NCBI GenBank assembly: GCA_903813345.2 | Contig: CAIIXF020000002.1 | Location: forward strand, 27,225,223-27,289,222 | Origin: Owenia fusiformis | Taxonomy: Eukaryota > Annelida > Polychaeta > Sabellida > Oweniidae | Direction of reading: 5' to 3' | Length of the DNA: 64,000 bases | Shown here: positions 17,390 to 59,856 of the stretch, piece after piece | Layout of the letters: each line of letters starts with the position of its first letter | Numbering within the stretch: position 1 is the stretch's first letter | Made by a program: the position numbers and the translations under genes | Notes under the pieces: model-generated | Databases searched by the model: none | Told to the model about the DNA's origin: nothing | What the model saw: the letters and a program-made list of their open reading frames with translations, nothing else

Positions 17390-18420
17390 AATGAGTAGAC
17401 AAGACTTTACTGACACAATTTGAGGAAGGGAAATCCAAAATAGGCACCCAGAATGCCATAAAATTAGTAAGTTCTAGATTTTTATACTAAGAACCACCCC
17501 TGAAAATTTGAAATTGATCCGTCAAACAGTTAACCAGAAAACACGTAACAAGACTTTACAGACAAGATTTTAGGATGGAAAATCCAAAATGGCCACCTTG
17601 ACATTTACCCAGAATGTCAAAAGACTAATCAGTTCTAGATTTTCATACTAAGAATCATCCCTGAAAATTTGAAATTGATCTACCAAACGGTTCACCTGAA
17701 AACGCGTAGACAAGACTTTACTGACAAGATTTTAGAACGGAAAATCCAAAATGGCTGCCTTGACATTTACCCAGAATGCCAAAAACTAATGAGATCTAGA
17801 TTTTCATACTAAGAACCATCCCTGAACATTTTAAATTGATCTACCACACGGTTCACCTGAAAACGCGTAGACAAGACTTTACTGACAAGATTTTAGGACG
17901 GAAAATCTAAAATGGCTGCCTTGACATTTACCCAGAATGCCAAAAAATAATCAGATCTAGATTTTCATACTAAGAATCATCCCTGAAAATATGAAATTGA
18001 TCTACCAAACGGTTCACCTAGAAATGCATAGACAACACTTTACAAACAAGATTTTAAGACAAACAATCCAAAATGGTCACCTTGACATTTATCCAGAATG
18101 CATAAAAACTAATCAGATCTAAATTTTCATACAAGAATCATCCCTGAAAATTTGAAATTCATCTACCAAACGGTTCACCTGGAAATGCATAGACAAGACT
18201 TTACCGACAAGATTTTAGGACAGAAAATCAAAAATGGCCACCTTGACATTTACCCAGAATGACAAAAAACTAATCAGATCTAGATTTTCATACCAAGAAT
18301 CATCCCTGAAAATTTGAAATTGATCTACCAAACGGTTCACCTGAAAATGTGTAGACAAGATTTTACAGACAAGATTTTAGGACGGAAAAATCCAAAATGG
18401 CCGACAATAAAAAAGTGATT
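17390..18420. repeat. Tandem array of a ~161-bp unit, about six copies
   Basis: The marker GACAAGATTTTAG starts at about 17571, 17723, 17884, 18045 (varied to AACAAG), 18206 and 18368, so the spacing is 152, 161, 161, 161 and 162 bp. Each unit also carries AATCCAAAATGGC, TTGACATTTACCCAGAAT and ATCTACCAAACGGTTCACCT. Units differ by point changes and small indels. The array ends in a gradually diverging block that runs into the simple repeat at about 18840. Confidence 0.85.
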
Positions 18421-33092: not shown

Positions 33093-33228
33093 TCGTATAT
33101 TTTATTTATAAGCTCTTCATATTATCTTTTTCCTCAGTCAGCAACTCAAGTGGCTTTCAAATTTTCTGATTTTTACCTCAAGATGGGTAACAGATTAGAT
33201 TAGACTAGGGTTTCTCATAATGAAGTCA

Positions 33229-33560
33229 ATAGACTAGATGCAAGAATAAATAATTTTGAATTTCATTATTAGAAATTCAAAATTCGGTCAAAGTGATATC
33301 ATATTTGAAATCTACATGTAATCTTACATCCAGTGTTTTTCAACTTTGAAAATTATATTTTCTATGAAAATGTGATTTCTAGGTTGGGGAGATTCCCCAT
33401 AGATCCCATGTTATAAATTCACAAAAAAGTGAAATATCATTTTTTGTATTGGGCAGATACTATTTTCTTCAATGGAAATATTTTAATTTTTAAAATTATC
33501 AGATATAAAGGGTAATATGAAAATTGAACCACATCACCCAAAAGTAAAAACAAAAATACT
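33229..33560. mobile_element. Repeat family D, copy 1 (right end missing)
   Basis: It starts TAGACTAGATGC and carries ATATTTGAAATCTACATGTA, TCCCCATAGAYCCCATGTTA-like text and ATTGAACCAC in the same order as the copies at 41346 and 53649. The right terminal TACTCGCATC is absent, so the copy is truncated. Confidence 0.7.
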
Positions 33561-34309: not shown

Positions 34310-35989
<1,680 letters not shown>

Positions 35990-40544: not shown

Positions 40545-41345
40545 AAAGGTATATGCTTTTCATATTTACAAGTATTTACATCATGTACATGATATAAAAT
40601 AGTACAATGCATATATTAAACATGCATGTATATATAGGGTTGTGTTAAATGATGTGCCATGGCGTATTGTTATAAACAATGCGTGGATAGTAAAATAAAA
40701 CGAAATTATAGATTTTGACATTTTGGTGGAATTTTTAAGAGAATTCCATAGTGAAGGCCCATTACGTTTTTTATGATCTCTCTTTTCTAAATTGAAAATT
40801 CTGCATCACACCCCCTTTGGCACCTCCCCAGAGAAAATTATTTCTAGAGGGAGTGGGCTACACCTCGCATCCCAAAAAACAAATAGCACTGCCTTAAAAT
40901 GGTAAAATGTTCTGGGGGAGAGCAGGAGAGGACCATCATTTGGGGCCCAACTAGCACTAGACCTTCCAAAAATGAATAAAAATGTTTTCCGTTGTTTTTC
41001 CTCAGTTTTAACGGCTTTCAAGAGGTGAAAGCCCATGGTTTTATTTAGTTTATCTCTATATTTGGAATTTTTGTCAACTTAAAGGGGGGGGGCTTAAACA
41101 CTTTAAGATAATTGCCACATTGATTAAAAAATAGTTCTGGCACCAAAACCCAAAATATAAAGCATTTCAGTGGAAATAACCAGATAGCATAGTACTGATA
41201 ATATTTTCCGGACGCGAATGGCGCATCCCTGTCCCTCTGCCGCCTCTTTCCAGTGGCGGATCCAGGAGGGTGGGGTTCAAGTTTAGAATTCCCAATTTAT
41301 CATGTCAATCAAATTGCAGGATGTGATCACGTGAACAATCAATAG
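40545..41345. other. Intergenic with an isolated transposon end
   Basis: Carries the single CAGTGGCGGATCCAGG motif near 41253. No gene was recognised; the minus-strand 76-codon frame at 40806 lacks support. Confidence 0.4.
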
Positions 41346-43200
41346 AGTAGATGCGAGTAGAAATAATCTTGATTTACGTTATTAAATATTCAAAATTCAG
41401 TCAAAATGATGACATATTTGAAATCTGCATGTAAAAGTACATCTAAAAATATGTTTTCGAATTGTCTATCAACTTTGAAAATTTAATTTTTTTTTGAAAA
41501 TGTGACTTCTTGTTCGGGTTGATTCCTCATAGACCCCATGTTACCACAGGTCCGTGATGTTACAAAATCACAAAAAGTGAATTATCTTCTCGTGTATTGG
41601 ACAGATAGCATTTTCTTTTACTGGACATATTTTAATTTGCATAACTATTAGATACATGAGGGTTATATGAAAATTGAACCACGCAAATAGATGTAATTTA
41701 AGTTAAAGGGAACTTTCTACTATACCCGCCACTGTGGCGTAGGAACAATGTACGCCAAAACGCCAGTGCGTAGTGTTGAAAAGTGAGAATAAAAAGGCTT
41801 ATTAATTTTCCTATGTTTTTTATTCATATTTTCTCATTGTATTGTACAAAAGTTATCTCGAGCACACTAGCCTAAAGAAATTTATTTGTGGATACCATAT
41901 GATATGCTCGTTTTTTCAATAGTACTCTTTTGCATGGTTTTTGTGCCTCTGTTATTTTTCTAATCTGGGCCACAGATAAATGACACTTTTTGAAAAATAA
42001 AATATTGAAAGTTACCTTGTTTCTACAGTTCTAATACTGTAGAATATGCAAAGTAACATGCTTTATTTCATGATAATCAAGCCACTATTGACTATCTTAT
42101 GGATTTTAAAACTAAAATACAATTTCGCCAAATATTCGTGATTCGCGTTCTCTTCACGAATTTGAGAAAAAACAGTCTTTTCAAAAACTACTTGATGAAT
42201 ACCTTTGCAATTTTTTTTGCACATGTTCTGTAATGCTTATGCAATCAAACTGTGGTATCGTTTAATTACAATGATGAACCTCTTTAAATGAGATGTATAT
42301 TTTTTATTCTCCCCTACCCCCCAATTTTTCAATTTCACTATATTGATTTATATTCCGTTGCTAGGCAAAATCATAGACGGAAATTATAGTTAAGTCAGCA
42401 ACTATCTATTTTCTTACTAAATCACCAATTGTCATTGGTAGTACTTCTTGAAATATGAATGTTAAAGACAAAAACAACTTGAAAATGTTGATTATTCAAA
42501 TACACGTTCCATCGATTTCAGTTCTAGAAAACCTATTACCAAGGTTTTTATTTCATTTGAAAGATAATAGATTATTGTTTTAGGAAATATAACATTTTTG
42601 GCACCCACCCTTAATTGTTTCATTGATCACGAATGCGTTTCTTTAAATCAATTGATCAAGCTAGATTCTTTAATCTGTACGTGTCGTATTGCACGGTACA
42701 CGATGTAATCAGACAAAAATATATCTCAATTTAATTAAAATGATTAAAAATCTCTCATTGTTATTTGGAAATTGATCGTCTATATCGTTCGAGACATAAG
42801 AGAATGATTTGTGATTTTCCATGGTGATTTTAAATGATGAAAATCATTCGAACAATTTAAGCACATTAAAAGGGGCATCAAGGATTTTAAGCTTGCATAT
42901 AAAATCGAAACGCCAACCTAAACGTATGACCAATCGCCCATACAAATGCATCGCTTAAACATTTCCGTTCACATTTAGGTTATGAAAACATTGCATTCTA
43001 TTAACATAAAATGACGTTTAACGAGCATAAAATAGGCGTTTTGATATAGAAGATTTGACACAATTGTTTCATAGTTTTGGCGGGACTTTTTGGCGTAGTG
43101 TTGAATTTACACCTTCCTACGCCCCTGGGCCGCCATGCTATCTGACCCGAACGAGCAACCTGGTGGTGAATCTGGTAACTACCTACTCGCATCTGCGTTA
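41346..43200. mobile_element. Repeat family D, copy 2, split by a 1.4 kb insertion
   Basis: The left part 41346-41730 begins AGTAGATGCGAGTA and the right part 43131-43200 ends CTACTCGCATCTGCGTTA. Together they match the intact copy at 53649-54082. The break falls within ACCCGCC|ATGCTATCTGACC. Confidence 0.8.
41731..43130. mobile_element. 1.4 kb insertion inside family D copy 2
   Basis: Defined by comparison with the uninterrupted copy at 53649. Its ends (CTGTGGCGTAGGAA and TTCCTACGCCCCTGG) form an imperfect inverted repeat, and CGCC flanks both sides as a possible 4-bp duplication. The interior is AT-rich with no intact coding frame. A similar GGGCGTAGCC word occurs at 26985. Confidence 0.7.
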
Positions 43201-52650: not shown

Positions 52651-53648
52651 TTACATTCAAAGTGAAATATATTGGTTATTAGTGTATTTATTTAGGTTTA
52701 GGTAGCGATCTGAGGCACTTCGATCAGGGTGTTGTCGGGACAATTTCTCTTGTGACTTAGGTTATGTATTTAGGTCTATCTCAACAGATTTTACTGGTCT
52801 TATGCGCCGCAAATGGTGCGAAAGATGTTAAAATTGCATTTTCGACCCTAAAATTCAGATTTCTTGGGGGTACATTATTATTTAGCTATAAAACAAAAAC
52901 TAAACAACCAATGCTTCTTTCTTTTGGTGTTTCTGTTAAGAGTAATCATACTTACAATGCATATGTAAAAGAATTGAAGAATTTTAACTTTATTTAAAAA
53001 CAGCAACATTTTTTCACCCTAAAATCATAGAATTTAGGGGGGTTGAGAGACATTGATTGGAACTGATTTTTTAATTTCTCAATCAATCTCAGTTTAATAT
53101 TAATGGAACTTTCCTAAAAGTAGCACCAACATGTCCCCAACACATTACCATAAAGAAAAAACTCAAACTCTAACATGTTTTTTGCCTATATGGGTCAATT
53201 TACCTCTCCCCTCTTTCCCTTTTTAGAAGGGCGTGGCCATATTGGCATGTTCATCTAAAAATAAATACTTCATGTTCATATCCATCCTCCGATCACAGGG
53301 CTTCAAAATCCAGAACATATTCTTTCTTTTTACCCCCAGCAATAAGCAGTTACCATTTCCCCGATTAAGAACTCGCAATCTGATTGGCTGTCGCAACACT
53401 GCGACAGAAATCATGTATACGTCATTGTGCATAATTAGATCACGTGATTCAGTTAAATCAGGCGCGTCGAAATTGGTTATCGCAGGGGGAAGAAGGAGGT
53501 ACGGATTCTGGACACCTGCTTAGGAGATTGGTTCATATCATGTTATCATTTTTATGTCCCCAACAAAAAGTGGTGACATATTGTTATGGTCTCTGTTTTT
53601 TTTTGACAGTGGTCAGTGGTCGGCGGTTTGTGGTTGGAGCTTGGCAAT

Positions 53649-54082
53649 AGACTAGATGCGAGTAAAAATAATCTTGATTTACGTCATTAAATATTCAAAA
53701 TTCAAAGTGATGTCATATTTGAAATCTACATGTAAAAGTACATCTAGAAATATGGTTTCGAAAATTGTTTATCAACTTTGAAAATTTAATTTTTTTTGAA
53801 AATGGGTGACTTCTAGTTCGGTTTGATTCCCCATAGACGCCATGTTACAAAATCACAAAAAGTGAAATATCTTTTCTTGTATTGGACAGATAACATTTTC
53901 TTTTACTGGACATATTTTAATTTACATAACAGTTAGATACATAAGGGTTATATGAAAATTGAACCACTAAACAGATGTAATTTAAGTAAGGGGGAACATT
54001 CTACTATACCCGCCATGCTATCTGACCCGAACGAGCCACCTGGTGGTGAAACTGGTAACTACTTACTCGCATCTGCGTTATT
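53649..54082. mobile_element. Repeat family D, copy 3 (intact MITE, about 430 bp)
   Basis: It begins TAGACTAGATGCGAGTA and ends TACTCGCATCTGCGTTA, so GATGCGAGTA forms the terminal inverted repeat. This is the uninterrupted reference for the copies at 33229 and 41346. Nested inside the 5 kb element. Confidence 0.8.
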
Positions 54083-54139
54083 GGTGTCTGTAACAAATTC
54101 TTACAATTTCAAATAATTAACAAATACTGTATAGACTGA

Positions 54140-54450
54140 CTTCAATTGTTTTCAAAATCATCTACGTGTTTACAGATGTTCAAATCTGACATTATATTTA
54201 AAGATTTGACCTTCAATGACCTTTTCAAGGTCAGAAAAAGTCTTTTTTCAACTTGCTTCAAATTAACCATTTTTTCAAAATCATCTATAAGTTATCAGAA
54301 GTTCAAATCTGACTTAATGTTTGAGATTTGACATTCAATGACCTTCTTAAGATTTAAGAATATAGATTTGATCATTAAATGACATTCTAAAGGTCAAAAT
54401 AGATTTGACCTTTAGTGACCTCCTCAAGGTCAAAAAGGTATTTTTTATCT
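54140..54450. repeat. Degenerate tandem repeat containing GACCTTCAATGACCTT
   Basis: Blocks with TTCAAATCTGAC, GATTTGAC(C/A)TTCAATGACCTT and AAGGTCA recur two to three times with roughly 100-130 bp spacing. Not coding. Confidence 0.5.
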
Positions 54451-54538
54451 TGTTTCAACTAGGTGGTGACATTTTGTTATGTTAATGCCTTGTTTTACTT
54501 GTAGCTAGTGAATGTCTTTGAAATGACATAAGCCTAAT

Positions 54539-54705
54539 ACAGTGGGACCTGGGTTAGTGAACACCTTTCTCTAGTGAACACCTGTGTAAAATGAACACCC
54601 TATTTTCAGCACATACCTTGATTCCAATACAAATTGTCTTTCTGTATTGAAATCTTTTTTTGTGGCTCTATAGATGTTCACTGTACACAGGTTTTACTTT
54701 ATGCA
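54539..54705. mobile_element. Small TIR element of the TAGTGAACACCT family, copy 1
   Basis: The left end ACAGTGGGACCTGGGTTAGT and right end ACACAGGTTTTACTT are imperfect complements. TAGTGAACACCTxTCTAGTGAACACC matches the copy at 59857-60009. It lies just upstream of the nuclease-like pseudogene. Confidence 0.65.
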
Positions 54706-54862
54706 AAACATCTTTATATTTAACTTTAATTAATAAACTGATTATCTAATTGCAATTATAAATTGCTATCTATTATTTGCAGGGAACATGTAGCAAAACA
54801 ATAAGGGAGAATAGTAAGCTATTCAAGGCTTATTACTGTCTGATGTTCTATTATTAACTAAT

Positions 54863-56913
54863 TTGATTGATTCAATTGATGGCTTTCTCAATCCATTCCA
54901 AATTGAGGACAATGATCATTTATACTGCATATCATCTGGAATGCCAACACCCTCTACTTTAGCAGATGATCTCTTAAATGCAGCATCCAAGGGCACACAA
55001 GCCTTTAAGCAATTTATTCAAGACCAATTTGTGCAGAAGGGAAAAAGTTTTCATAACCCCATAAAAGAATGAAACTGAAAACATCTGAATTCAATGCTGG
55101 AGTCAAAAAGGTGAAAAGCTCTGGAAACAAACTGATTGAGATTAGAGCTGAGCGCAATACATTTGGCCAGTTAGTCATGTTATCAGAGCAGCATAGTATC
55201 AGTCTAAAGCGAATATTAGAATATCCCCTGAGTCCAATACCCTGGGCTCTTGGAACACCTGATGGGCTCTTGGTTAAAACAGAAAAGTCAAAATTATTAC
55301 ATGAGCTGGAAACATATGATATTACATGGACCCAAACCAGAAAAAAACAATTATAGTCTATGATGGCAATGCATTGTTCCATATACTTCCTGAGCGACCC
55401 AAAACATTTGGATTATTGGCAGAGAGGATCCTTCAGATGCTTCCTATAAGAAAGATTCAATTAAAGAACCAGAAAGAATACGCAGGCGTGTCTCCAAAAA
55501 GCTAATAATAAAAGGACCTAATACCAGAATTCCTAACAATTGGAAGGAATTCCTTTTAAATGATGAGAATGAAATGCAGCTGAGTCAGTTGATCCTTGAA
55601 GAATGGAAAAAGATAAAAATGCTCCTTAACTCAAAGAAAGATAGATTCATGTGAGATCTGTACAGTGGTAACCAGTGATAGAACTACTGCTACACATACA
55701 GTTGAATCAAGCCTGAAATCTTCCCACAAAGAGGCAGATACAAAAATTATACTCAATGCAATTAACATGAAATGAACCTGAAAATACAGAAAAAACTATA
55801 GTTGTGAGATCCCCAGATAGCGATGTTTTTTGTACTTCTTACGCACTTTCCAATCTTATTCAAACTCCATTAATTTTTGACACTGGTAGTGCAGACCACA
55901 TATGACTTATTAAAGGTGCAACAATTAGTGCAGGGGGGTAATTCAACGATCATCGACCAGTGTCAAATATATTTAAGTTTGGATGTTTCATCAAGAGTAA
56001 CATATATTTTTATTATCTACAAAGAAACCCCCTTGATGAACATTATTTCAGCTGATATTCCTCTTGAAACGTGGTGAATCTTAAAAATCTTAAAAAGTGG
56101 GACTCCCTTTATAGAAGCTTTGAACTGAATTTACACTTCTAAATTGAGAGTTTATCCATACATTTTAAGAAAATAGATATGTCAAAGAAGATGTTAAGCC
56201 AAATATTGACCTGATAGCTCAGAAAAAAGAAAAAAAAATTGAATTTTCTCTCTACAGTCCCTTGTTGCCCCTTTAATGTAAAGGAAGTAGGAAATGCGCT
56301 CAGTTCAGACATTTGTAAATTTGTAATGCTTTACCAGCCTTCTATTCATTCACTGGATGTGATTCCTTCAGTGCCTTTGTGAGAAGGGAGAAAGTGTCCC
56401 CCCCCCTTAAAATTACTTATGAGAATTTCAAAAAGGTTTCGGCACCATTGGAGGGGTCATTAGTGATCAAACTGCTAAATGTGCTGAGAAGTTTACTTGC
56501 CAGATGTATGGAAACAAAAAGTGTTCAAATATAAATGAGCTGAGATATACCTTATTCAAGAACAAATTTCAACCAAAATCTGCTCCAAGTGTGATAACAA
56601 GCTATGAAGGCACTAACAATAAGCCTCCTACCCCCATGTAAAGATTCATTACAGCAGCATCTGGCAAGGGCCAGTTATCAAGCACACATATGGAAACTTG
56701 CCAACATCCCCTCCCCATCAATTCCCTCCCCTGTGTCACATGGATGGAGGATGAAAGATGGCCATTTGGATTTCAATGGGTGTCAAATCCAGATAAAATT
56801 CTACCCCAGGACCTGGTAGATGTTATGTATTAGATGATACTTTAGAAGATCAAAATGAAGAGGAAGTTTATGAAATACAAAGCTTTATGGATCAAATATA
56901 TTCTGGTGAATAA
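54863..56913 (+). pseudogene. Decayed gene of a widespread uncharacterised family with PIN/FEN-nuclease-like motifs
   Basis: Several frames on the plus strand, broken by stops and frameshifts, line up in the order of a large protein family I recognise from many invertebrate and fish genomes, usually in multiple copies. Blocks in order are ILEYPLSPIPWALGTPDGLL (about 55210-55270), VYDGNAL (near 55356), SIKEPERIRRR then KGPNTRIPNNWKEFL (55457-55560), SHKEADTKIIL (near 55725), IVVRSPDSDVF (near 55800) and FTGCDSFSAF (near 56345). The spaced acids (Asp in YDG, Glu-Ala-Asp, Asp-x-Asp, Gly-Cys-Asp) resemble the metal-binding acids of PIN/FEN1-type nucleases, and the GCD block resembles the motif leading into the FEN1 helix-hairpin region. 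That link is my inference. The reading frame changes at least three times, so no functional protein is made. It sits centrally between 540-bp inverted repeats, which suggests it is the gene of that mobile element. Confidence 0.65.
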
Positions 56914-57737
56914 AAACTACATTTGTGATGACAGAAATTCATACAATGAGTAAAATTAATATTATGACTGAGTCGTGAACTGTGTATTAGATAATATTCA
57001 ACTTCAGATTTTCAATATTCTTATATCTCGAGCCTACATAGAAAAAATATTGTATTATAAATAATTCACAGGTATGTACTATATGTATACACCTAAGTGA
57101 AAATATTTTATGATAATATATTTGATAAAATACATGATATGTACATGTATTCATTTAATGTGCCATCATGCTACTGTTTAAATCCACATGTATTAATGGC
57201 CACACCCCTTTTATAAGGGAAAGAGGGGAGAGGTAAATTGACCCATACAGGCAAAAAACATGTTAGAGTTTGAGTTTTTTCTTTATAGTAATGTGTTGGG
57301 GACATGTTGGTGCTACTTTTAGGAAAGTTCCATTAATATTAAACTGAGATTGATTGAGAAATTAAAAAATCATTTCCAATCAATGTCTCTCAACCCCCCT
57401 AAATTCTATGATTTTAGGGTGAAAAAATGTTGCTGTTTTTAAATAAAGTTAAAATTCTTCAATTTTTTTACATATGCATTTCAAGTATGATTACTCTTAA
57501 CAGAAACACCAAAAGAAAGAAGCATTGGTTGTTTAGTTTTTGTTTTATAGCTAAATAATAATGTACCCCCAAGAAATCTGAATTTTAGGGTCGAAAATGC
57601 AATTTTAACATCTTTCGCACCATTTGCGGCACATAAGACCAGTAAAATCTGTTGAGATAGACCTAAATACATAACCTAAGTCACAAGAGAAATTGTCCCG
57701 ACAACACCCTGATCGAAGTGCCTCAGATCGCTACCTA

Positions 57738-59856
57738 GTTAGGTTATTAAGTAGATAATATTGCAGATCTTTTGGAAGATTTACATTCAGCATCGTGAAG
57801 AACGCGATGCTTGCTCAATTGTACACATTGCTTGCAAATTTTGTCACCCTCTATAGATCTGATTCCACCTTTAAATGAGATATTAGCAAAGAGATGCAAT
57901 CATTGTTTTTCAAAAAGTCGGAATATTGAATGACTTATCTAGCTTTCGTATTTACAGAAAAAATGTCTGTCTATTAAAGCAAATCAATTTCACAAAATTT
58001 TAAGACACAAGGTTGGAGGCACTTTGGTTTTTGAGAAGATCCCTTGTAAAAGTTGACAGATCAATCTATTGACCTACCTGATAACAAGAAAGTTAGGTTT
58101 ACACTTATTATGTTTGAGCTTTTATATCCACTCTGACTTCGTTGACATATCAATCTCTACCAGTCAACACATCAAGTGACCATCGACAACTTTGTTGCTA
58201 TTGGTATTATAGCGGTAACTCAGTTATAAGGGCCAGTAGGTTTGATTACTTGGTGGTGTTGTGCCTTGTTCTAATAGTAACAAATCTGTTACATTTGTTG
58301 ATTAAGGTTTAAGACTTGTCCTTGTAGGATATCATCACCATATTCTTGACTTTTGTAAATAATGATTTTGTTGTCGTGCTTTACCTGAGGTCCCGTCACT
58401 AAAGAATTTCAAAAATGCTCACGTCTCAAGAAAATCAAAATTGTTTTTTGAAAATTGTTCTCCCAAAATTATACTAAGCCCCCCCCCCATTGGCTCTCAA
58501 AAGCTTGGGTCGTGACATTTTGGTCAAATGATGATTTCTTTTTTAAATTTTGAACATTAAATGTTATTGGATGAATATAATATGAGCAAATTAGTTTAAT
58601 ATGTCGTTCTAATACTCAAACCATCTTTGTCTTAAGGCTGTGATCTGTCACGATGGAAATATGCAGCAATGAGAATTTTTGGTAAAATGTTAGATGAACA
58701 AAGTAAAGTTATCGGGATTATAAACAGATATCTCCGAAAAACCATTGTTTACATGTCGGGCCCATCTTAAGACATTTTTCAAAATGTCAGGCTTATTTTC
58801 TAAAAGTAGACCTATTCCTTTTCTCATTTTTATCATATCAAGTTTTTTCTGCAATATGTTAGCCTTTTGAAAGGGAGAAGGGCATTGACATATGAAGTTG
58901 AAAATACCATATATCCAATGTTATTTTCCCATTGAAAGAAGAACCATTGTTTTCAGCCCTATTTTGGTCATCAAAATTTGATATCTTGCAAATTAGGCTT
59001 TCAATGCCATTCTACCTTTGAAGAAGTTATAGATCTCTTTTATATATGATGAAGATCTATCAGGAAATAAAAAATATTTTGAAAATTGCAAGTAAGGTTA
59101 TAATTCATGATTTTTGGAGAGTCCGATTGACAATTTCATAATCCTGGGGAACACACTAAGAGCTAGGAAAAATATTATTTTGATAAGAAAAAATTTATGG
59201 TCAAAGATATGACTGTCTAAAAGCATTTGCCATACTATACCTGGTCCTCTGCCAGTTTAGTGGCTGCCTTCAGTAATGTAATTTGTTTTTGTGTTTTAAT
59301 TGGCAAAGATTCTTTCAAAATTCTTGTTACATCAAAATAGTTGACTATCATTTATCAGTTATATCGTACTTGAATTGAATAATCCTAGAATAGATATGAT
59401 AAATTGATCTTTTGGAATTCAGTCAAAAAGTGTTTGGAAATATTTTAAATTTTTCTCCTTTGAATTATTTCATTTGTACACAATAATAGGAGATGTAAGG
59501 CTAAGTAAATATTGACCTTTGTTTTACAATATCTTGAACTTTGGATTAAGGCTACATTCGTTAAGTAAATAGTGATAAGAACTGTTTACTTGTACTAATA
59601 TTTTGTATTCTTGAGTTAGTGATATCACATTTGGCATGTGCTCAACAATGCGCTTACACAATTGGGTTATGATATCATCATGCCAATGACAGATCATCTA
59701 TGAAAATAGCAACATTGTGTTTCTACTCATGTGAGAGGTGTGTGGTAACATCATTTATCATACACCAATACCATCATGATAAACCATGACATCTCAAATC
59801 TTCTCAGCCCTGAGATGAAACAGAAAGATACTATGAGTATCAGAATGCACCAATAC
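57738..59856. other. Intergenic, no gene established
   Basis: AT-rich. One short minus-strand exon-like stretch near 59235-59275 is discussed among the rejected items. No repeat shared with the rest of the window was noticed. Confidence 0.4.

Follow-up and report, generated by a model that had tools for sequence, protein, structure and literature searches.

A probable non-autonomous AcademX-like DNA transposon carrying the relic of a FEN/EXO1-like nuclease gene in Owenia fusiformis

A decayed gene lying between two long inverted repeats raises the question of what kind of mobile element it belongs to, and of whether the nuclease that it seems to encode could have driven its movement. The original prediction for this locus held that the gene is a member of a widespread family resembling PIN/FEN1-type nucleases, that gene and terminal inverted repeats (TIRs) might be paired elsewhere in the genome next to target-site duplications, and that the element would then carry a structure-specific nuclease in place of a standard DDE transposase. 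The locus is part of a 64,000-nucleotide stretch of DNA, hereafter the window (C2:27225223-27289222), and the searches covered the 498-Mb assembly, which comprises 525 contigs.

The element, its copies and its target-site duplications

The element in the window measures 5,039 bp (TAGGTAGCGA...TCGCTACCTA) and occupies positions 52699-57737, within one base of the 52698..57737 originally proposed. The inverted copies of ~540 bp described around the decayed gene are real. A repeat search returned raw arms of 561 nt at 52699-53259 and 57177-57737 (96% identity), and the clean TIRs are 542 bp long and 97.8% identical to each other; the left one (52699..53240, + strand) opens with TAGGTAGCGATCTGAGG, and the right one lies at 57196..57737 (- strand). 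The trinucleotide GTT borders the element on the left (52696..52698) and on the right (57738..57740), and comparing the flanks of 22 elements identified it as a 3-bp target-site duplication. A nested insert of ~430 bp (53649..54079; junction 951/1383 in the copy comparison) is spanned in 6 of the 20 compared copies and has relatives elsewhere in the window, at 41340-41731 and 33227-33532 (window BLAST).

When a 543-base TIR sequence was used as the query, 215 candidate places were found in the genome, and the 40 that were scored are all listed at ≥98% identity. The terminal 30 bases of the TIR occur 92 times with at most two mismatches, as against 0 times for the backward control, and these ends resolve into 39 facing pairs and 14 singles. 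The pairs span 4.2-5.9 kb in 32 of 39 cases, 0.2-3.3 kb in four and 7.2-13.2 kb in three. The window element and 19 of 20 retrieved stretches were taken as a sample of the family (n=20), leaving out L029, the TIR pair of which is merely 1.28 kb apart. Averaged over matches longer than 600 bases, 17 of the 19 other copies are 97.0-98.6% identical to the window element, and L028 and L030 are about 94% identical.

An exact 3-bp duplication flanks 20 of the 22 elements compared (18/20 of the window family and 2/2 of an intact family described below), so that the duplications expected at other copies are indeed present; among mismatched flank pairs, 3-bp agreement was found in 18/462. One copy, L014, has a 4-bp duplication, AACT, and for L028 no target duplication was found in this flank comparison. 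Duplications of 5-9 bp occur in 0/22 elements. An 8-bp duplication, TTTAGGTT/GTTAGGTT, which matches at 7/8 positions in the window alone, was rejected once the 22 elements had been compared and had yielded 3 bp. The duplicated triplets are diverse, and include GTT, AAT, CAA, TGT, TTG, TTT and others besides TAA and TTA. PIF/Harbinger elements duplicate the triplet TWA and hAT elements duplicate 8 bp; the former were rejected because the triplets are not confined to TWA, the latter because none of the 22 elements is exact at 8 bp.

The pairing of gene and TIRs also holds elsewhere in the genome. A 65-residue query from the gene gave 96 matches among 130 scored candidates, from which 39 close gene places were listed by hand. 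Multiple matches to the same place were counted once, and two further short matches were set aside: C3:11560679, some 2 kb away from an unpaired TIR end, and C3:13283442, which has no neighbour among the 92 TIR ends. Of the 39 relics listed, 37 fall inside window-type TIR pairs, and the other two lie at distances of 1.8 and 5.1 kb from unpaired TIR ends. Conversely, 35 of the 39 TIR pairs hold a listed gene match, and the L030 pair also has a relic (tblastn). Intact TIRs, multiple copies and the lack of a functional transposase gene characterize non-autonomous derivatives; this genome holds about forty such DNA transposons of similar make-up, among them the window element.

The broken gene and its intact relatives

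The relic in the window (54860..56827, + strand; tblastn and frames) corresponds to residues 950-1500 of p62, an intact relative, and in other copies it extends to residue 1522 (tblastn). The N-terminal half is absent: p62 residues before 948 have no match in any of the 20 copies (tblastn, E 0.01). The YDG, EAD, DSD and GCD motifs originally noted are present, scattered across different frames that contain stops. All on the + strand, they comprise the first FEN-like acidic motif, YDGNALF, at 55359..55379 (frames and motif alignment), the EAD motif, KEADTKII, at 55728..55751, the DxD motif, SPDSDVF, in a different frame at 55810..55830, and the GxD motif, TGCDSFS, at 56352..56372.

One of the frame breaks is shared by the whole sample. 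It lies at 55442..55454 (+ strand), as delimited by the ends of the tblastn matches in the window, and no match there covers p62 residues 1147-1153, a span to which the second acidic residue, D1153, belongs. The segments on its two sides, YDG and KDSIKEPER (starting at 55359 and 55451 in the window), stand in the identical out-of-frame relation in 20/20 copies, and since both matches overlap on the DNA there is no room for an intron between them. Thus, the gene was broken before the family spread. The remaining frame breaks vary by copy; at one position, L028 or L030 is in frame, unlike most copies. The longest frame among the 20 copies has 177 codons. As the family is devoid of the N-terminal half and its nuclease part lost its frame before it spread, neither half can have been its engine.

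Searches with the relic itself returned little. None of ten translated pieces of the window scored over the cut-off of any Pfam family, a single-sequence search of the PDB with the joined window gene gave no match, and a profile (A1) retrieved two unrelated chains alone (E 0.25 and 0.87). No relative was found in viral contigs with the window gene, A1, the motif pattern or the A2 alignment described below as queries. A motif scan of genome contigs gave three matches in bacterial bins, which were put down to chance (with a three-locus database, the best tblastn E was 0.009).

A further query was used to look for intact members. It yielded 544 candidates, and all 150 scored places matched; 20 of these 150 matches sit, stop-free, in frames of 1,274-2,087 codons, some of which may represent duplicate contigs. 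Three relatives, p62, p64 and p65 (from loci L062, L064 and L065; 1,526, 1,602 and 1,509 codons), were taken full-length, and in each of them an N-terminal half and the nuclease are fused in one protein. The L062 element measures ~6.43 kb, with TIRs of ~521 bp and the duplication TCA; L063, which shares 99.6% identity with it, has the duplication AAG. The L062 TIR has 20 matches, 14 of them strong (96-100%), and the strong ones form 7 pairs that bracket all 7 p62-type genes seen. Similarly, the L038 and L064 genes lie between inverted arms of at least 605 and at least 643 bp, respectively. For L065, no inverted copy was present among the matches listed, and its 3' flank is repeated in tandem.

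Long TIRs thus surround intact relatives in three of the four other families tested, as predicted, but their sequences are never those of the window family; the L062 and window TIRs are unrelated, with a best match of 12 bases (E 0.034). Among the scored matches, none was an intact copy between TIRs of the window type, and the nearest intact long frame among the matches listed is 51% identical to the window relic. The partner of the window family is therefore missing, lost or among the unscored candidates. An abundant protein family is hereby identified as transposon-encoded, in four of five subfamilies tested, and a genome that holds near-identical intact elements, such as the two compared here, makes a role of the nuclease in transposition testable.

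Two halves of one protein

The C-terminal half was analyzed in an alignment (A2) of 13 intact nuclease regions, drawn from 17 ranges of which four near-duplicate or short ones were dropped. Seven acidic residues are invariant in 13/13 domains (D22, D59, E161, D163, D186, D188 and D244), as are, among others, K67, R71 and R74. FEN1 and EXO1 likewise have seven acidic residues, in the identical order and with the same pairs spaced by two. The positions are 1116, 1153, 1255/1257, 1280/1282 and 1338 in p62, 34, 86, 158/160, 179/181 and 233 in human FEN1, and 30, 78, 150/152, 171/173 and 225 in EXO1; in FEN1 and EXO1 these residues are catalytic. A K..R..R pattern behind the second aspartate is also common to them. 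In contrast, the second and third motifs are 102 residues apart in the p62-type nuclease, as against 72 in FEN1/EXO1, and the p62-type nuclease is fused to a transposase-like half.

The similarity to FEN1/EXO1 borders on the undetectable. The best matches of the A2 profile in the PDB are EXO1 chains, as the predicted likeness would have it, with E values of 0.036-0.037; an unrelated receptor comes next at 0.42. The EXO1 matches consist of two short stretches, around the second-aspartate and GxD motifs, neither significant by itself. When A2 was compared with six FEN/EXO1 sequences by hhalign, 215 columns were aligned with a score of 31.8 (P 0.0011, probability 20%), in a register that superimposes the first, second, DxD and GxD motifs and sets EAD/EAE off by two residues. 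Restricted to gap-poor columns, the score was 30.65, above all of 300 column shuffles (maximum 23.3), and the reversed-profile control gave 10.25. In Pfam, the 13 intact domains matched eight families, each with one member and none better than E 0.013; two of these are nucleases, XRN_N (0.024) and NYN_YacP (0.11), and the remaining six are not evidently nucleases, DUF7674 (0.013) and ParG (0.015) outscoring both. This half of the family thus goes unseen in Pfam scans. The invariant acids and the shuffle test make kinship of the C-terminal half with FEN1/EXO1 likely, in keeping with the FEN part of the original proposal; a PIN-like fold would be in line with this kinship, and the half may well act as a nuclease.

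In the N-terminal half, D402/D405, D633 and E879 (p62 numbering) are invariant in the three full-length proteins; the counterpart of E879 is invariant in 10 sequences, and that of D633 nearly so. C42, C45, H101 and C104 are also invariant in the three proteins, and we read them as a zinc-finger-like motif. A profile of this half retrieved no DDE transposase from the PDB (3 matches, E 0.91-2). Its sole convincing Pfam match is DUF6589, found in three of ten members (best 3.4e-5), and 14 further families match weakly with one member each. DUF6589 (PF20231), of unknown function in Pfam, is matched above its cut-off by the N-terminal region of L042 (32.4 vs 27 bits) and below it by that of L065, and by neither p62 nor p64 at E 1. 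It occurs at eight places in the genome, in particular at C11:19954101, in one 2,087-codon frame with a nuclease match, and at C3:3010745, just upstream of a nuclease match. In the literature searched, no paper was found that names DUF6589. Short staggered duplications are a trace of DDE joining, and because the residues are conserved and the duplications staggered, the N-terminal half is a putative DDE transposase.

What moved the element, and its place among known transposons

The most probable explanation, to which we would give a probability of roughly 0.8, is that the window element is a non-autonomous AcademX-like DNA transposon with a dead gene, moved in trans. Its autonomous ancestor would have encoded one protein of ~1,500 amino acids, the zinc-finger-like motif and D...D...E region of which may have bound the TIRs and cut and joined DNA, and the FEN/EXO1-like nuclease might, speculatively, have processed flaps or hairpins arising from TIRs of more than 500 bp or at 3-bp staggered joints. 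The ancestor of the window family would have lost residues 1 to about 949 and the frame of the nuclease part, and would then have spread to about 40 copies by means of its intact TIRs and an enzyme supplied from elsewhere.

EnSpm elements also make 3-bp duplications, and a member of this or another such superfamily, like Zator, might have picked up a piece of a nuclease gene by chance. The duplication length is indeed not unique, since Zator makes 3 bp as well, according to PMC10045372. This alternative is improbable, as intact relatives lie within long TIRs of their own, the gene being apparently native to such elements, and the two examined for duplications have 3-bp ones; two further intact families are counted here on their long TIRs, not on duplications.

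Still less probable is that a structure-specific nuclease, in place of a DDE transposase, is the engine, as originally proposed. The order of the acidic motifs, the profile match and the failure of the N-terminal half to find a DDE structure in the PDB speak for it. Against it, the three full-length relatives retain a long D...D...E half next to the nuclease, short staggered duplications fit DDE joining, and the window copies have neither half intact, one being absent and the other broken. It would be just as surprising if the FEN-like domain, instead of the N-terminal half, did the essential cutting, with long-TIR transposition running on a flap or hairpin nuclease; in that case, the window family would have arisen as a side product of a mobile system driven by a nuclease. 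A host pseudogene between accidental foldback arms, which the decay of the window gene might suggest, is refuted by the 39 TIR pairs, the interior common to 20 copies and the target duplications.

AcademX is a lineage of Academ DNA transposons, reportedly due to Kojima in 2020, and encodes a nuclease. The name AcademX-like as used here for the window element relies on duplication length, nuclease and size, rather than on an aligned Academ reference protein. In literature searched for AcademX, AcademH and Academ with XPG, no description of the window element was found. A transposon lineage that encodes a nuclease and makes 3-4 bp duplications thus already has a name, AcademX, and the window element itself is ordinary; PMC10045372 ties the 3 or 4 bp duplications of AcademX to its nuclease and the 9 or 10 bp duplications of AcademH to its encoded helicase. 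An AcademH counterpart is unsupported in this genome, as no Helicase_C match adjoins the DUF6589 genes (150 of 155 candidates scored).

The window copy differs from AcademX in having no transposase-like half and a dead nuclease. As in AcademX, the nuclease of which is of the XPG type, the intact relatives encode a nuclease, judging by motifs and profile, of which the window family keeps a broken relic, and the duplications are of 3 bp in 20/22 elements and of 4 bp in L014. Academ elements are expanded in bivalves, where they average 5,565 bp, according to PMC10294476, a size that the window element, at 5,039 bp, and the intact L062, at ~6.43 kb, resemble.

Relatives of the L064-type terminal inverted repeats

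When the terminal inverted repeat (TIR) bracketing the intact nuclease gene at locus L064 was used as a query, 419 candidate places were found in the genome, of which 40 were scored. Many of these 40 matches were 76-83% identical, and several were paired 5-6 kb apart (e.g., C7:21644219-21650085), which suggests a large non-autonomous family related to the L064-type elements.

Variant copy and gene-associated tandem unit

One copy of the window element, L013 (C8:26788782-26796009), is 7.2 kb long and contains an internal inverted duplication. Tandem copies of one common unit sit 3' of nuclease genes of the type found at L065 (L065 3' flank, C1:32171828-32175170), and a row of copies of this unit occupies C9:30353876-30360243.

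Repeats within the window

The strong strand skew at 34-36 kb probably stems from a 551-bp GA dinucleotide array (35438-35988; 275.5 copies, 98% matches). Another tandem array, of 161-bp units, spans 17446-18402 (5.9 copies). Comparison of the window sequence revealed a repeat of ~430 bp nested inside the element (53649-54079), with relatives at 41340-41731 (86%) and 33227-33532 (77%). Its inverted-looking ends, GATGCGAGTAA and TTACTCGCATC, make this repeat a possible small non-autonomous transposon.
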